A stretch of 21,313 nt of DNA from a virus: IMG/VR virus record IMGVR_UViG_3300034418_001844, positions 1 to 21,313 of that record, one strand, 5' to 3'. Positions within the stretch are counted from its first letter, which is position 1; every line of letters begins with the position of its first letter. The translations under genes were made by a program, and so were the position numbers. The notes beneath the pieces are model-generated. The model did not search any database. It worked only from the letters and a program-made list of their open reading frames with translations, and was not told where the DNA came from. Positions 13,339-21,313 of this stretch are shown here, piece by piece.

Positions 13339-13522
13339 TAAGTTGTCTCCACTTTAGTTCATATATAAGCTTACGCTGCTCGTAATCGGACATTACCATC
13401 CAATCTCTTACTTCGTCAAGTGTTCTTTTACACCCCACACAAAAGCCATCATCATCTATACGACAAACCTTTATGCAGGGTGAAGGGACAGTACCCAGTT
13501 TATTTCTACGTTGTCTACTCAC
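13331..13522 (-). CDS. DUF1289 family Cys-rich protein
   Basis: The frame encodes the DUF1289 signature SPCIKVCRIDDDGFCVGCKR (Cx3C-x7-Cx2C) followed by TLDEVRDWMVMSDYEQRKLIYEL. DUF1289 proteins are small proteobacterial proteins of unknown function whose four cysteines probably hold zinc or a similar metal. I chose the GTG at 13522, which gives 63 residues and an 8-base overlap with the RNR gene. An upstream in-frame start at 13561 would add a hydrophobic segment (MLATTILLLVYV) encoded entirely inside the RNR 3' end, probably an artefact of overlap. The ribosome binding site is unclear, so the start is uncertain. The direct overlap with RNR hints at a linked role. Confidence 0.8.
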   Translation of the reverse strand: MSRQRRNKLGTVPSPCIKVCRIDDDGFCVGCKRTLDEVRDWMVMSDYEQRKLIYELKWRQLNG

Positions 13523-15269
13523 ACTGACGTAGACCAGTAGCAGGATCGTAGTAGCAAGCACCGCCCTCTTCTACGTAGTCCTGTGTTTCTTCTACTACAG
13601 GTTCCTCTGCTACTTCCTCAGAGGTAGAAGCGTTGAGTATACCATAGCGTTTACCTGCTGCACGGAAGGTAGTGCAACCAGAAGAACCACCATCGTAAGC
13701 ATCCATGTAGACCTGCTTAAACTCTTCCCATGTTACATCTTCACCAACGTTACATGTCTTAGAACATGCTGAGTCAACAAAGCGTGAGGCAACGTTCAGT
13801 ACCTTGACGTGATCAAAAACTGACAGTTCATCTGCAGTCTTACCCTTCACACCAAAGACACGATAGCCGTAGTCTTCTACTCGTTCAACCTTTGGTCCAT
13901 CGAAGGTTTGGATAGTTCTGTCGTAGTAATGTGAGAAGACAGGCTCGATTCCAGAGGATACGTTGTCGGCTGACAGACTGATAGTTCCTGTTGGAGCAAC
14001 AGAAAGCAGATGACTGTTACGAATACCATAATCGCTAATGAGATTGCGGATATCATCAGGAAGAGACTTAGCAAAGTCACTCTCCAGATAAGCCTGAGTA
14101 AAGAGAGGGAAAGCACCTTTCTCCATAGCCAACTCAACAGATGTACGATAGGCAACATTCCTAATCACCCCCATGATTTCTTCAAGGGTCTGCAGGAATC
14201 TGTCACTGCCATACTCAAACCCTAGTGCTTCAATAGCATTTGCTACACCAGTAACACCAAGGCCCATACGTCTTTTACTCTTGGCTTCTAACTCCTGTTC
14301 TTTCAGTGGATATGTTGCTCTATCTACGACATTATCCATAGCTCTTACGACATGTGGAATGTCATTACGTAATTGGTTCATGTTGAAGACGTACTTACCT
14401 TCATGCTCAACAACATACTTAGTTAAATTAAATGAACCAAGTAGACATGCACCGTTAGGAGGCAGTGGTTGCTCACCGCATGGGTTTGTTGCAGCAATCT
14501 TTTCTGCGTACCACAGGTTGTTCTTCTTATTGATACGATCAATGAAGAGGATACCAGGCTCTGCCCAGTCCCATGTAGAACGTAGGATCTGATCCCATAG
14601 TGCAGTAGCACTTACTGTTTTGTAGACACGTCCATCAAACTTTAGATCAAAGTCTAAGTCCTCTTTCACAGCTTTCATAAACTCATCAGTCACACCAACA
14701 GAGATGTTGAACTGTGTCAGTGTGTCACTGTTGTTCTTTGCTGTGATGAACTCTTCAATATCAGGATGATCAACACGTAGGACACCCATCTGTGCTCCAC
14801 GTCTGTGACCTGCTGATGCAATGGTACGACAGACAGCATCAAAGATACCCATGAAAGATAGAGGACCAGATGATTTACTGTCCAATGATTTAATCAAGGT
14901 GCCACGAGGACGCAGTGTACTAAAGTCATAGCCAATGCCGCCACCTAGACGCATGGTCTCTGCTGCACGTCTTGCTGCTTCCATAATACCATCCATGCTA
15001 TCCTCAATAGTCATAGACACAAAGCAGTTGTAAGGTGTCACACGTCTTGGTGCACCCATAGCTGACTGGACACGTCCTGCAGGTAGGAAGCGTTGGTTGT
15101 ATAGGATGTTACGAAAGTTATTGAAGTGTGATTCATTATCCTTCAGTGCTTCAGCAACACGAGTCATTGCCTCACGAAATGTTTCACCCTTGCTACGATA
15201 CTTCATAGCATGGATTTCTTCTGAGATTGTTAGTGTTGGGCCATATACTTCTTCGTGAACATCTTTCAT
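13515..15269 (-). CDS. nrdJ: Class II (B12-dependent) ribonucleotide reductase
   Basis: This enzyme of 584 residues reduces ribonucleotides to deoxyribonucleotides using adenosylcobalamin, so it works with or without oxygen and needs no second subunit. Key residues are visible: Cys82 in YNCFVS and Cys275 in NGACLLGSFNL form the active-site dithiol pair. Asn262, Cys264 and Glu266 lie in NPCGEQ, with Cys264 the thiyl radical site. The 11-residue gap from Cys264 to Cys275 equals that in Lactobacillus leichmannii RNR (408 and 419). SGPLSFMGIFDAV, GHRRGAQMG and SVAPTGTISL are further family motifs. The N-terminal ATP-cone is absent. The C-terminus carries Cys572 and Cys583, the likely electron-shuttle pair, with unusually wide spacing. 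The ATG overlaps the MazG stop (ATGA). Class II RNRs occur in roseophage SIO1-like phages. Confidence 0.93.
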   Translation of the reverse strand: MKDVHEEVYGPTLTISEEIHAMKYRSKGETFREAMTRVAEALKDNESHFNNFRNILYNQRFLPAGRVQSAMGAPRRVTPYNCFVSMTIEDSMDGIMEAARRAAETMRLGGGIGYDFSTLRPRGTLIKSLDSKSSGPLSFMGIFDAVCRTIASAGHRRGAQMGVLRVDHPDIEEFITAKNNSDTLTQFNISVGVTDEFMKAVKEDLDFDLKFDGRVYKTVSATALWDQILRSTWDWAEPGILFIDRINKKNNLWYAEKIAATNPCGEQPLPPNGACLLGSFNLTKYVVEHEGKYVFNMNQLRNDIPHVVRAMDNVVDRATYPLKEQELEAKSKRRMGLGVTGVANAIEALGFEYGSDRFLQTLEEIMGVIRNVAYRTSVELAMEKGAFPLFTQAYLESDFAKSLPDDIRNLISDYGIRNSHLLSVAPTGTISLSADNVSSGIEPVFSHYYDRTIQTFDGPKVERVEDYGYRVFGVKGKTADELSVFDHVKVLNVASRFVDSACSKTCNVGEDVTWEEFKQVYMDAYDGGSSGCTTFRAAGKRYGILNASTSEEVAEEPVVEETQDYVEEGGACYYDPATGLRQCE

Positions 15270-15643
15270 CTGTTGTCTCCTGATCCTTTTAGTTTTCCAC
15301 GTCTTTGTCTGTCGTCTAGCTTGGCAATGTTTAGCTCTAGTACTTCCTGCAATCCCTTGCCATAGATGTTAGCTAGTGCAGTAGCATAGAATACTACATC
15401 ACCTAGCTCTTTCATGATCTCTTCATTTTGAAAACGAGAGCTATCACGAATTAGTTTCTTGATCTTTTCTGCCACCTCTCCTGCTTCTCCCACAAGACCA
15501 AGTGTATTTTCTACTAGCCTTGCTTGACCTTCAGTCATAATCTTTTTCTCTACCCATCTAGAATAAAGATCAGTCCAGTCTACTTCATCACTATCAAAGT
15601 TATCAAAGTAACCAAACTTATCTAGGTCATCACCACTTATCAT
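15266..15643 (-). CDS. MazG-like nucleotide pyrophosphohydrolase
   Basis: This 125-residue protein has the MazG/all-alpha NTP pyrophosphohydrolase signature. GLVGEAGEVAEKIKKL contributes Glu53, Glu56 and Glu59, and EIMKELGDVVFYATALA contributes Glu79 and Asp82, the ExxE...ExxD magnesium site. Such enzymes cleave (d)NTPs or related nucleotides to the monophosphate and pyrophosphate. Phage copies have been proposed to adjust nucleotide pools or (p)ppGpp signalling, although the substrate cannot be read from the sequence. It is translationally coupled to RNR downstream and to a 51-aa acidic gene upstream, both by ATGA overlaps, which suggests a shared role in dNTP supply. Confidence 0.88.
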   Translation of the reverse strand: MISGDDLDKFGYFDNFDSDEVDWTDLYSRWVEKKIMTEGQARLVENTLGLVGEAGEVAEKIKKLIRDSSRFQNEEIMKELGDVVFYATALANIYGKGLQEVLELNIAKLDDRQRRGKLKGSGDNR

Positions 15644-18160: not shown

Positions 18161-18200
18161 ACTATAAATAGTATCTAGTTGTTATGATCCAAGATGTCAA
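18161..18200 (-). promoter_or_regulatory. Candidate promoter upstream of SSB
   Basis: A perfect -35 hexamer TTGACA (18200-18195) overlaps the DNA polymerase stop codon on the - strand. The -10 region is less clear: TAGATA with 17-base spacing is only 3 of 6, whereas GATACT and TACTAT are better hexamers at longer spacing (19 and 21). TATAGT at 18166-18161 has no matching -35 element. The gap also contains the strong SSB ribosome binding site. The assignment is tentative. Confidence 0.3.
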
Positions 18201-20155
18201 TGGGTTTCTGACCAATTTTTTCCTACATCATATGAACCTGGTGTAGGTATCTTGAATCCTAATTCTTTACCAGTCTCAAGCATACACTGTGCTTGAATCT
18301 GACCTAGTCTTTCTGCTTCTTCTTTAGTTCCTATAACCTCCACTTGATATTCGTCATGAATAAAACCTACCATCTTGAATTTGATCCCTTCCTTACGTGC
18401 TACGTCATGCCAACGTAGGAGGGTGTGTTTCATGAGGCAAGCTTCACCATTCTGTAGTATACCAGCTAAAGCTTTGTGGGTGCTAGGAACTTTTACTTTC
18501 CTACCATCATACCCTTTGAACCAACCGTTCTCACCTACTTGTTTGATATACTTATTCTTCAGATCGTATAATCCACCAATACTCATCTCAAAACGAGTAC
18601 GTGCATCCTGTGCTTCTTTCATGTTGACCTTGAGGATCTGTGCAGTCTTAGCCACACCTGCACCTAGAAGCCAAGCATAAATAAAAGTCTTTGCCATATC
18701 TCTTGTACCATTAGGTACATCAAGAGCATTCTTATTCACGTTGTGGATGTCTGTCTCATCCTCTTTCTTTCCGTTCATAATAGCAAGAGCATACTGTTCT
18801 TCACCGTACATTCTCCAGAGGTAATCGGCTAAGACTCGTAGCTGAATACCATCAGCATCAGTGCCAACCAACCAAGAACCAGAAGGAACAGTCCAACAAG
18901 CACGTAGATGTTCATCATATTGTTTCTTTACCTCTTCTACAGGTGTCTTTGCATCACCGTGGAAGGGTGAAGATATGTTAGCGGTGTTAGGGTCTGAGTG
19001 AGAGCAGCGTCCAGTCCAAGCCCCAATACTGTTTATGTTACCATGAATACGAGAATCGTCAGAGACTTGACCTATCCACTCCACCAGTGATGAACGTCTA
19101 CCATCAAGGGTCTGCCACTGGGCTAGAGCTTTCGCTCCTGCAGGGGCATCCTCAGGCAGTGTGTCAAGGTTTGCTTCTGAACAAGTGAATCCAAACTTAT
19201 CAAAGTGTTCTTTCTTTTCTTTGTAGAACTCTTTAGACATTGACTCCACTTTGTTCCAAGCATCACCAGGTTTTGTTTTCATGAACCTCTTTGCTGTTTC
19301 AGTTCTGTCAACTGGATTCCAACCTGCTTCCCACAATACTGTGATACGATCTTTAGGTGAACCAGGTTTGAAATCAATCCATTCATGGCACACTAGATCG
19401 TCACCTTCCCTTGTGGTCATAGCACAACTAGCCTTTGCATTCTTTACTGTTGCCATCTCTTCGCCATCTTTCTTTAGACGGTACTTGATACGCTTGACTT
19501 CAGTAAGCTTAGGTGGAAAGTCTACTTGGAATTGTTCCTCTAAAAGTTTCATGCGTTGTTGCACAGAATTAAGTAAGAACTCTGCCTTGGGTTTATCAAA
19601 CTCAAAGCCGTAGTACTTAGTCCGAACCAATTCTATTTGAACATCGTGCTCAGTTCTCAGAGAAAGTGACCAATCATTATCCCAAATAACAGAAGAGAAA
19701 TGTTTGTAAAGAGCATGAGTAACCTCGATGTCTCCATACCAGTATTCAACCATTTCATCACTGAACTTATCAAAGTCATTGAACTCTCCTTTATATTTAC
19801 CTAGTCGCATACCCCAAGCCTGTAGGCTGTGACGTTTCTTTGCACCTTTAGGGATTGGTATATCATAATCAACCAACCTACTAATGATAACCGTGTCAAT
19901 GATCTTACGAGGATCAATCAACCTTGGCTTGAGTAGTTTGTTTAGCATGGGTGCGTCAAATTGTACAAAGTTGTGACCAACAATCAGGTCAGCAGACTCG
20001 TACCATTCTATGGCTGCAGCCTTAGCTACAGGATCTTCATGACAGTTCTCAAACTTATGTATCTCTCCAGTAGTAAGATCCTTACCACCGCAAAGCCAAA
20101 GCTTTTTACAATCGTGAAGCCCTTCAGTTTCTATATCTGAGATGACTATCTTCAT
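18197..20155 (-). CDS. Family A DNA polymerase with 3'-5' exonuclease, T7-like
   Basis: This 652-residue replicative polymerase has a proofreading domain first: DIETEG (Asp7, Glu9), GHNFVQFD (Asp67) and YGDIEVTHAL (Asp142). The polymerase part contains TGRCSHSDPNTANISSP, motif A LVGTDADGIQLRVLADYL (Asp433), motif B RDMAKTFIYAWLLGAG (Arg485, Lys489, Tyr493) and motif C FIHDEYQVEV (His600, Asp601, Glu602). It ends in GKNWSETH, like the T7 ending with its C-terminal His. Two active-site positions differ from T7 and E. coli Pol I: the steric-gate Glu (T7 Glu480) is Gln438, and T7 Tyr530 is Leu497. Tyr493, equal to E. coli position 762, is the type linked with virulent T7-like phages. It is a little shorter than T7 gp5 (704 aa). 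The ATG overlaps the helicase stop (ATGA). Confidence 0.95.
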   Translation of the reverse strand: MKIVISDIETEGLHDCKKLWLCGGKDLTTGEIHKFENCHEDPVAKAAAIEWYESADLIVGHNFVQFDAPMLNKLLKPRLIDPRKIIDTVIISRLVDYDIPIPKGAKKRHSLQAWGMRLGKYKGEFNDFDKFSDEMVEYWYGDIEVTHALYKHFSSVIWDNDWSLSLRTEHDVQIELVRTKYYGFEFDKPKAEFLLNSVQQRMKLLEEQFQVDFPPKLTEVKRIKYRLKKDGEEMATVKNAKASCAMTTREGDDLVCHEWIDFKPGSPKDRITVLWEAGWNPVDRTETAKRFMKTKPGDAWNKVESMSKEFYKEKKEHFDKFGFTCSEANLDTLPEDAPAGAKALAQWQTLDGRRSSLVEWIGQVSDDSRIHGNINSIGAWTGRCSHSDPNTANISSPFHGDAKTPVEEVKKQYDEHLRACWTVPSGSWLVGTDADGIQLRVLADYLWRMYGEEQYALAIMNGKKEDETDIHNVNKNALDVPNGTRDMAKTFIYAWLLGAGVAKTAQILKVNMKEAQDARTRFEMSIGGLYDLKNKYIKQVGENGWFKGYDGRKVKVPSTHKALAGILQNGEACLMKHTLLRWHDVARKEGIKFKMVGFIHDEYQVEVIGTKEEAERLGQIQAQCMLETGKELGFKIPTPGSYDVGKNWSETH

Positions 20156-21313
20156 CCGTTGAATACAACCTCCTCCAAGAGTGTAGTTTCAGGATCGTAG
20201 TAGACAGACCCTGCATTCCCTAATTTAGAGAAAGGTCTGTTCTTGTCAACAATAAACTCTGTGGTGTTACGTTCTTTATCATCTTCTGCTTCTGTGTCTC
20301 GCTTCAGTTTGATACAGATGATGGCCTCTTCCTCAAGGGAAGCTGCGTACTTTGTGCGTCCATCCTCATTGACCTGAGAGATAAAGATAACACCAATGTT
20401 TAATTCTTTGGCAAGCTGTGCCATCCGTGCACCTAGTGTAGTCAAGGTACTTGTTGCCGCATCAACACCAGAGTTAGATAGGTAGGCCAGACGTTGAACG
20501 TGATCAATGAATACAAACTCTGCACCGTAAACAGTGACAGCAGTACGGACATGGTCCAGTATTTTCATTGGGTCTTCATGACTACGCATATCAAAAGGAA
20601 TTGTTTGTTCATTCCTTGCCATGCGTTGACCTGCTTCAATGACTTCACGTTCAGTAAATCCTGCAGCTTCAGCATCTTCTTTGGTACGAACATTAACGCC
20701 TAGCTCGTAGGTAGCCATAGCTCTGAAGGTTGTAGACTTCATCTCTTCCATGTGGACAAGACCAATCCGAACACCTTGTTCAAGCAGAGCACACTCAAAG
20801 TATCTGGCAAGCTCTGTCTTACCTTGCCCCCGCATAGCCTTGATGAAGGTAATACCACCCTTCACCATGCCACGTAGCTTATCATCTAAGCCAGTGTGTC
20901 CTGTTGGTACGTACTCGTATGGGTTCTCGTACAAGATTGCTTTCTCTACCTCTAGATCACCAACAAAGAAGTTGTCAGGGCTGAACCGTTGAGGCTTGAG
21001 TGCTGCCCACTTCAGGTCATCACCATCACCGTTCACCAAGAACTCGTTGGCATCCTTCCACTTGGACATAGGTACGTAGTAGAACTTGTCAGGCATGGTG
21101 CTGTAGAGTTTCTCTGCTGCTGCCTTACCTGTGTCATCTGATAGTTCACCTGCGTAGACTACCATCTCAAAGCTGTTTAGGTACTCAAAGTTTTTCTTTA
21201 AGAACTCATCACTGAAGGATCCACTTGGCAATGACTTAACAGGGTAGGATTTACCTAGCACCTGATAGAGACTAGCCGCATCAAACTCACCTTCTGTGAT
21301 GTAGATACGTTTA
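20152..21313 (-). CDS. Primase-helicase (T7 gp4-like), C-terminal part
   Basis: The frame is open to the right edge, so the N-terminus (zinc-binding and early primase part) lies outside; 386 residues are visible. They start with the TOPRIM motif IYITEGEFDAASLYQ (Glu and Asp), continue through VVYAGELSDDTGKAAAEKL, where T7 has FDMDEAG, and KWKDANEFLVNG, like T7 KDANE. The RecA-type helicase follows: Walker A KAMRGQGKTE, Walker B FVFIDHVQRL, motif VIFISQVNEDG, and KNRPFSKLG at the position of the T7 arginine-finger region. The enzyme unwinds duplex DNA ahead of polymerase. Primer synthesis is uncertain, because one conserved TOPRIM Asp seems replaced. The GTG at 21261 is an internal codon, not the true start. 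Confidence 0.92.
   Translation of the reverse strand, partial: KRIYITEGEFDAASLYQVLGKSYPVKSLPSGSFSDEFLKKNFEYLNSFEMVVYAGELSDDTGKAAAEKLYSTMPDKFYYVPMSKWKDANEFLVNGDGDDLKWAALKPQRFSPDNFFVGDLEVEKAILYENPYEYVPTGHTGLDDKLRGMVKGGITFIKAMRGQGKTELARYFECALLEQGVRIGLVHMEEMKSTTFRAMATYELGVNVRTKEDAEAAGFTEREVIEAGQRMARNEQTIPFDMRSHEDPMKILDHVRTAVTVYGAEFVFIDHVQRLAYLSNSGVDAATSTLTTLGARMAQLAKELNIGVIFISQVNEDGRTKYAASLEEEAIICIKLKRDTEAEDDKERNTTEFIVDKNRPFSKLGNAGSVYYDPETTLLEEVVFNG

Follow-up and report, generated by a model that had tools for sequence, protein, structure and literature searches.

In canonical family A DNA polymerases, ribonucleotides are excluded by a steric gate in motif A, where the side chain of Glu710 (Escherichia coli Pol I numbering) blocks the ribonucleotide 2'-OH. 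Elsewhere in established Pol I structures, helix Q contributes Gln849, positioned at the primer terminus on its minor-groove side; residue 852 is one helical turn further on. In the closed state of E. coli Pol I, Tyr766 is hydrogen bonded to Glu710, and both residues have been termed universally conserved (PMC4882331). Work from 2025 on the apicoplast polymerase likewise terms both the gate Glu and this O-helix Tyr conserved in family A (PMC12529929). Our literature search, which covered mostly open-access papers, returned no natural family A Gln gate, no biochemistry on one, and no pairing of positions 710 and 852. It also found no work on E710Q, E615Q, or E480Q, or on A757 or A852.

The DNA analyzed here (the window, meaning the whole stretch) is a virus fragment of 21,313 bases. 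It encodes a family A (T7 gp5-type) DNA polymerase of 652 aa that comprises a 3'-5' exonuclease domain and a polymerase domain (18197..20155, minus strand; the polymerase features given below lie on the same strand). The translation of this open reading frame contains LVGTDADGIQLRVLADY. This annotation was supported by the Pfam profile DNA_pol_A (108.1 bits; curated cut-off, 34.3), by T7 gp5 as the top PDB sequence match (phmmer), and by an AF2 model (pLDDT 93.3, pTM 0.86) for which the top 27 PDB matches in Foldseek are all T7 gp5. Motif A reads DADGIQLR (Asp433 to Arg440, 18836..18859) and aligns without gaps with T7 DASGLELR; its Asp433 (codon 18857-18859) is a catalytic metal ligand. Motif B, on the O helix, spans Arg485 to Gly500 (RDMAKTFIYAWLLGAG; 18656..18703) and places Tyr493 at the E. 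coli 762 position. Motif C is the catalytic triplet His600-Asp601-Glu602 (18350..18358), which is invariant in two polymerase alignments. Also invariant in the polymerase alignments is the catalytic set D433, D601, E602, R485, and K489, all of which the window enzyme keeps, together with Y493, H600, and the exonuclease DIET. The latter is the Exo I motif (Asp7-Ile-Glu9, 20129..20137), and its alignment, along with the match to the T7 exonuclease domain, indicates an intact proofreading domain. By fold and catalysis this is an ordinary T7-type enzyme, but its gate is non-canonical.

The nearest named relative of the polymerase is that of Roseobacter phage CRP-9 (98.5% identical), so the window has the cobavirus-type DNA polymerase of CRP-9-type phages. 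In such phages the replication genes are of cobavirus type, and morphogenesis and the structural genes are of HMO-2011 type (PMC8528129). Compared by order and length, the window's genes track CRP-9 from the ribonucleotide reductase (RNR) through the structural genes. The polymerase, Endo I, MazG, and RNR (584 aa) are ordered as in CRP-9 gp24-gp38, and opposite-strand genes of 1141 aa, ~392 aa, and ~177 aa also parallel this interval by length. A primase/helicase frame (20152-21261) runs off the end of the window; counted from an internal GTG, 369 aa fall within the window, and the CRP-9 protein has 472 aa.

The gate position is occupied by Gln438 (codon CAG, 18842..18844). A gapless phmmer alignment of the window's motif A with that of T7 gp5 equates this residue with T7 Glu480 and E. 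coli Glu710, so the Glu of the canonical family A gate is absent. A preliminary description of the window had proposed a Gln in place of the gate Glu between 18820 and 18870. Codon and alignment bear this out, and no acidic residue within motif A substitutes for the missing Glu. It had also suggested looking for the Gln across related phages, where it proved to be general: IQLR was read in CRP-9, CRP-13, CRP-4, CRP-5, ICBM2, and SIO1, and in all 80 of the 80 related viral contigs of a first scan. In total, 359 related phage rows carry a Gln gate. Judged from these alignments, Gln438 is a clade-wide feature of cobaviruses, SIO1, and CRP-9-type phages and no sequencing error.

A second substitution accompanies the first. 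Glu571 (codon GAA, 18443..18445) lies in motif 6 of helix Q (LQNGEA), three residues past the conserved Gln568 (E. coli Gln849). Its co-occurrence with the Gln gate drew it out, and the Klenow and T7 registers place it at the position of E. coli Ala852, which is Gly in T7. Among 481 sequences, many of them near-copies, motif 6 is readable in 396 Gln-gate rows, and each of these has Glu at position 852. In the same sequences the residue is G, A, N, or S in 78 of 78 Glu-gate rows, and Thr in the single Asp-gate row. The motif 6 column was the sole one to match the gate one-to-one in a set thinned to 62% identity. Across 272 polymerase-domain columns, the gate and residue 571 were the only two to separate Gln from Glu gates without overlap in both phages (359 versus 64 rows) and bacteria (43 versus 14 rows). 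Bacteria alone have 13 separating columns; phages have just these two.

The O helix has changed as well. Leu497 (AWLLGAG, 18665..18667) stands in place of the Tyr that is residue 766 in E. coli and 530 in T7, so the window enzyme departs from the canonical family A gate at this position too. The preliminary description, correct about the gate change itself, had the canonical gate Glu packing against this Tyr, which the window enzyme does not possess; it missed both Leu497 and the second-site, compensation-like Glu571. In a first wide sample of 406 sequences, the residue at 766 is Leu in 258, Phe in 84, and Tyr in 1 of the Gln-gate sequences, and Tyr in 62 and Phe in 1 of the Glu-gate sequences. 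Loss of Tyr766 is, on these counts, frequent alongside a Gln gate, yet not required. Since Gln gates with Tyr766 exist, its loss appears to be secondary to the gate change. The Tyr-to-Leu replacement on the O helix was considered as the partner of the Gln gate and discarded, as the DSS3_VP1 group and all bacterial Gln gates keep Tyr766. Another exception to the supposedly universal Tyr is Mycobacterium phage Magnar (L103), which combines a Glu gate with Phe766 and Ser852.

These O-helix data bear on the idea that the paired change tunes finger closing, speed, or fidelity and not sugar choice, by removing the Glu710-Tyr766 lock and shifting the balance of open and closed states. In Pol I, Glu710 and Tyr766 do determine fidelity and the equilibrium between open and closed states (PMC4882331), and both are altered in the window enzyme. 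Moreover, position 766 is Leu, Phe, or Tyr in Gln-gate enzymes and nearly always Tyr in Glu-gate enzymes. However, bacterial and DSS3_VP1-type Gln-gate enzymes retain Tyr766, which puts the loss of Tyr outside the core change, and we regard this explanation as unlikely.

Gln gates are not confined to phages. A genome scan with the phage profile unexpectedly returned a bacterial Pol I (L436) with DYSQIQLR and QGAEAD. Within the alphaproteobacterial order to which it belongs, 37 genomes, counted where both motifs are readable, combine a Gln gate with Glu852 and Tyr766. Another 13 genomes of this order have a Glu gate with A, G, N, or S at 852, and one (L477) has an Asp gate with Thr852. A sample of 385 genomes from across the class contained 4 with a Gln gate, and these four were also in the sample drawn from the order. 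Phage-type Gln-gate polymerases also occur on contigs of bacterial MAGs (L430, L432, and L434; Blastopirellula, Dependentiae, and Patescibacteria), which may be either prophages or mis-binned virus contigs.

Could all of these gates descend from one event? With the three trait columns omitted from the alignment, the tree rejected a single origin for all Gln gates (AU p 4e-115) but not one Gln-gate origin within the phages (AU p 0.136). A tree of 97 rows requires six changes for Gln and six for Asp, at least four of each on well-supported branches. Of the independent pairs on supported branches that compare Gln with Glu852, three change in the same direction, none in the opposite direction, and one shows no difference. 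The corresponding pairs for Asp with Ser/Thr852 number about four in the same direction and none opposite. Pooled, 7 of 7 Gln and Asp pairs run in one direction (~0.016, two-sided), a value that comes from few supported pairs on one shared tree. The fourth, no-difference Gln pair consists of L548 (Gln gate, Glu852) and its sister L543 (Glu gate, Glu852). In this lineage Glu852 probably preceded the Gln gate, with L543 as a stepping stone. As reconstructed from these trees, the paired Gln/Glu852 swap took place independently in phages and in several lineages of bacteria.

The same trees weigh on neutral drift, by which both residues would simply have been fixed by descent in one fast-evolving phage lineage. 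Taken alone, the phages prove no coupling, given that their Gln gates could share one origin. The wider tree, however, forces at least four changes, each with the same partner, and Asp gates have a partner of their own; drift is therefore a highly improbable account.

One Pol I from Patescibacteria combines Glu852 with a Glu gate, and this phylum was therefore searched for the Gln gate alone. The search returned 2 of 287 genomes, both outside the discovery set and both with Glu852. Glu852 is also present in 3 of 26 Glu-gate Pol I sequences of Patescibacteria. Because some members of this phylum pair Glu852 with a Glu gate, the coupling as read from the alignments is one-way: a Gln gate implies Glu852, and Glu852 does not need Gln. 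Patescibacteria Pol I sequences with a Glu gate and Glu or Gln at 852 (L500, L542, L543, and L546; L535, L537, and L539) may possibly be stepping stones toward a Gln gate.

Of 192 Patescibacteria genomes, 9 have an Asp gate; residue 852 is Ser or Thr in eight of these and Ala in one, and none of the 26 Glu-gate Pol I sequences of this phylum has Ser/Thr852. Cellular Pol I with an Asp gate, nearly always with Ser/Thr852, includes L525, L528, L529, L536, and L550-L558 from Patescibacteria and L477 from the alphaproteobacterial order. The Asp side chain is one methylene shorter than that of Glu. That Asp gates carry Ser/Thr852 suggests mutual adjustment of the side chains at the gate and at 852, of the kind expected for residues in contact.

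Alignments and trees thus document the substitutions, the dependence of the Gln gate on Glu852, the tie of Asp gates to Ser/Thr852, and the several independent origins. Potentially accounting for them, we propose that the gate has been re-wired rather than broken, and that Gln438 and Glu571 probably form a compensated pair in which ribonucleotide exclusion is largely kept. Gln is near-isosteric with Glu and uncharged. Gln438 would retain the bulk that blocks the 2'-OH. Glu571 could hydrogen bond to the Gln438 amide, assume the electrostatic role of Glu710 from helix Q, or both. The Tyr766 brace would then no longer be needed and could drift to Leu or Phe, as in most phages and not in bacteria. 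Gln438 and Glu571 would function only as a pair. We infer the direct contact between 710 and 852, its hydrogen bond, and the retained sugar selectivity from sequence covariation. Any effect on ribonucleotide exclusion is probably small. Finger closing, fidelity, or sugar choice may nonetheless have shifted, given that E. coli Pol I with Ala at 710 or 766 has lower fidelity (PMC4882331) and BF E658A shows notable rNMP misincorporation (PMC7200780).

The preliminary description saw the gate differently. It held that the Gln should change sugar discrimination or metal/nucleotide geometry and that this may be functional in a phage with its own RNR and MazG. On the corresponding reading, the Gln relaxes sugar or metal discrimination, and phage-encoded RNR and MazG offset this by raising dNTP over rNTP pools. 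Both genes were recovered with Pfam on the minus strand of the window: an RNR of 584 aa (13515..15269; Ribonuc_red_lgC, 368 bits) and a MazG-type nucleotide pyrophosphohydrolase of 125 aa (15266..15643; MazG, 40.7 bits). It is also established that exclusion of rNTPs depends on the gate residue in three enzymes, E. coli Pol I, BF, and apPol (PMC4882331, PMC7200780, PMC12529929). A family search of 56 viral records detected RNR in 31 of the 41 Gln-gate records and in ~6 of the 15 Glu-gate ones (Fisher p 0.02, uncorrected for kinship or habitat, with records that may be fragments).

The tie between gate and nucleotide pools nevertheless loosens on inspection. RNR was not detected in 10 of the 41 Gln-gate records, which are 45-52 kb in size and come from an L232-related branch, unlike that of the window, and several Glu-gate phages do have the gene. 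Bacterial Pol I shows the identical change with no phage context at all. A Gln that acts alone to relax sugar discrimination is unsupported as stated, since it is nearly isosteric with Glu and always coupled to Glu571, a pattern that resembles compensation. We consider relaxed discrimination with a nucleotide-pool offset improbable. RNR as the explanation of the Gln gate was set aside, the association among the 56 records being loose and confounded; the link to RNR and MazG is weak, possible and not needed. The RNR-less Gln-gate records are those of L271, L274, L276, L280, L291, L295, L299, L304, L306, and L314.

More broadly, the compensated pair would make the family A gate a two-residue device, consisting of positions 710 and 852, that has been re-coded repeatedly: a small residue accompanies Glu, Glu accompanies Gln, and Ser or Thr accompanies Asp. 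On the covariation described above we lean toward this generalization, by which residue 852 would belong structurally to the gate, a role so far unrecognized, and the O-helix Tyr would be freed in the Gln/Glu version. The Gln-gate sequences contradict the supposed universality of these two residues, gate Glu and O-helix Tyr (PMC4882331, PMC12529929): one or both are missing from abundant marine phages, from some soil phages, and from several lineages of bacteria. A helix Q residue that pairs with the gate offers a rule on the construction of sugar selection that can be tested directly, and the E/A, Q/E, and D/S combinations of gate and 852 are natural controls provided by evolution. Position 852 is also a new site for engineering polymerases toward modified nucleotides.

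Several relatives have unusual gene structures. The polymerase is annotated as two overlapping genes, for the exonuclease and polymerase parts, in CRP-5 (L084:1501-3397), ICBM2 (L085:1501-3412), and S-TIP37 (L105:304-2078), which could reflect either a split gene or a programmed frameshift. The polymerase match in L417 (601-3099) covers 2499 bases versus ~1812 in relatives. The ~690-base insert suggests an intron, intein, or HNH element. The polymerase gene of Desulfovibrio phage ProddE (L094:349-2789) is annotated with an intron.

Among described phage enzymes, DpoZ of vibriophage phiVC8 is a family A polymerase that has also lost the O-helix Tyr (Phe459; PMC8599892). DpoZ serves 2-aminoadenine genomes, and the shared change reported for it is Tyr to Phe, with no Gln gate (PMC8599892). 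The likeness raises the idea of a pocket fitted to a non-standard deoxynucleotide in a phage with modified DNA, as proposed for DpoZ. The window enzyme is not of DpoZ type, having Leu497 and not Phe, and no 2-aminoadenine genes were recognized in the window with Pfam. Near the polymerase in the window and CRP-9, a cytosine methyltransferase and a thymidylate synthase are the only nucleotide-modification genes recognized. The pairing is, moreover, common to ordinary bacterial Pol I and needs no modified base, and we give adaptation to a modified nucleotide very little credence.

T7 gp5 has in common with the window enzyme its domain order, fold, catalytic residues, motif B Arg, Lys, and Tyr (762), and exonuclease motifs. 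At ~27% identity, it differs in having Glu480, Tyr530, and a helix Q Gly where the window has Gln438, Leu497, and Glu571. E. coli Pol I has homologous palm and fingers, and its E710, Y766, Q849, and A852 positions align with those of the window enzyme, but it has the canonical Glu locked to Tyr766, Ala852, and no phage-type linker or accessory context. Pol I of the order of Rickettsiales bacterium Nl494_bin11 has an independent Gln gate and Glu852 (DYSQIQLR ... QGFEAD); unlike the window polymerase, it is a full-length cellular enzyme of separate origin that keeps Tyr766. The cobavirus, SIO1, and CRP-9-type polymerases are the same enzyme as that of the window (identities of 98.5% for CRP-9, 70.8% for CRP-13, 47% for CRP-4, and 33% for SIO1), and all four share with it the Gln gate, Leu766, and Glu852.
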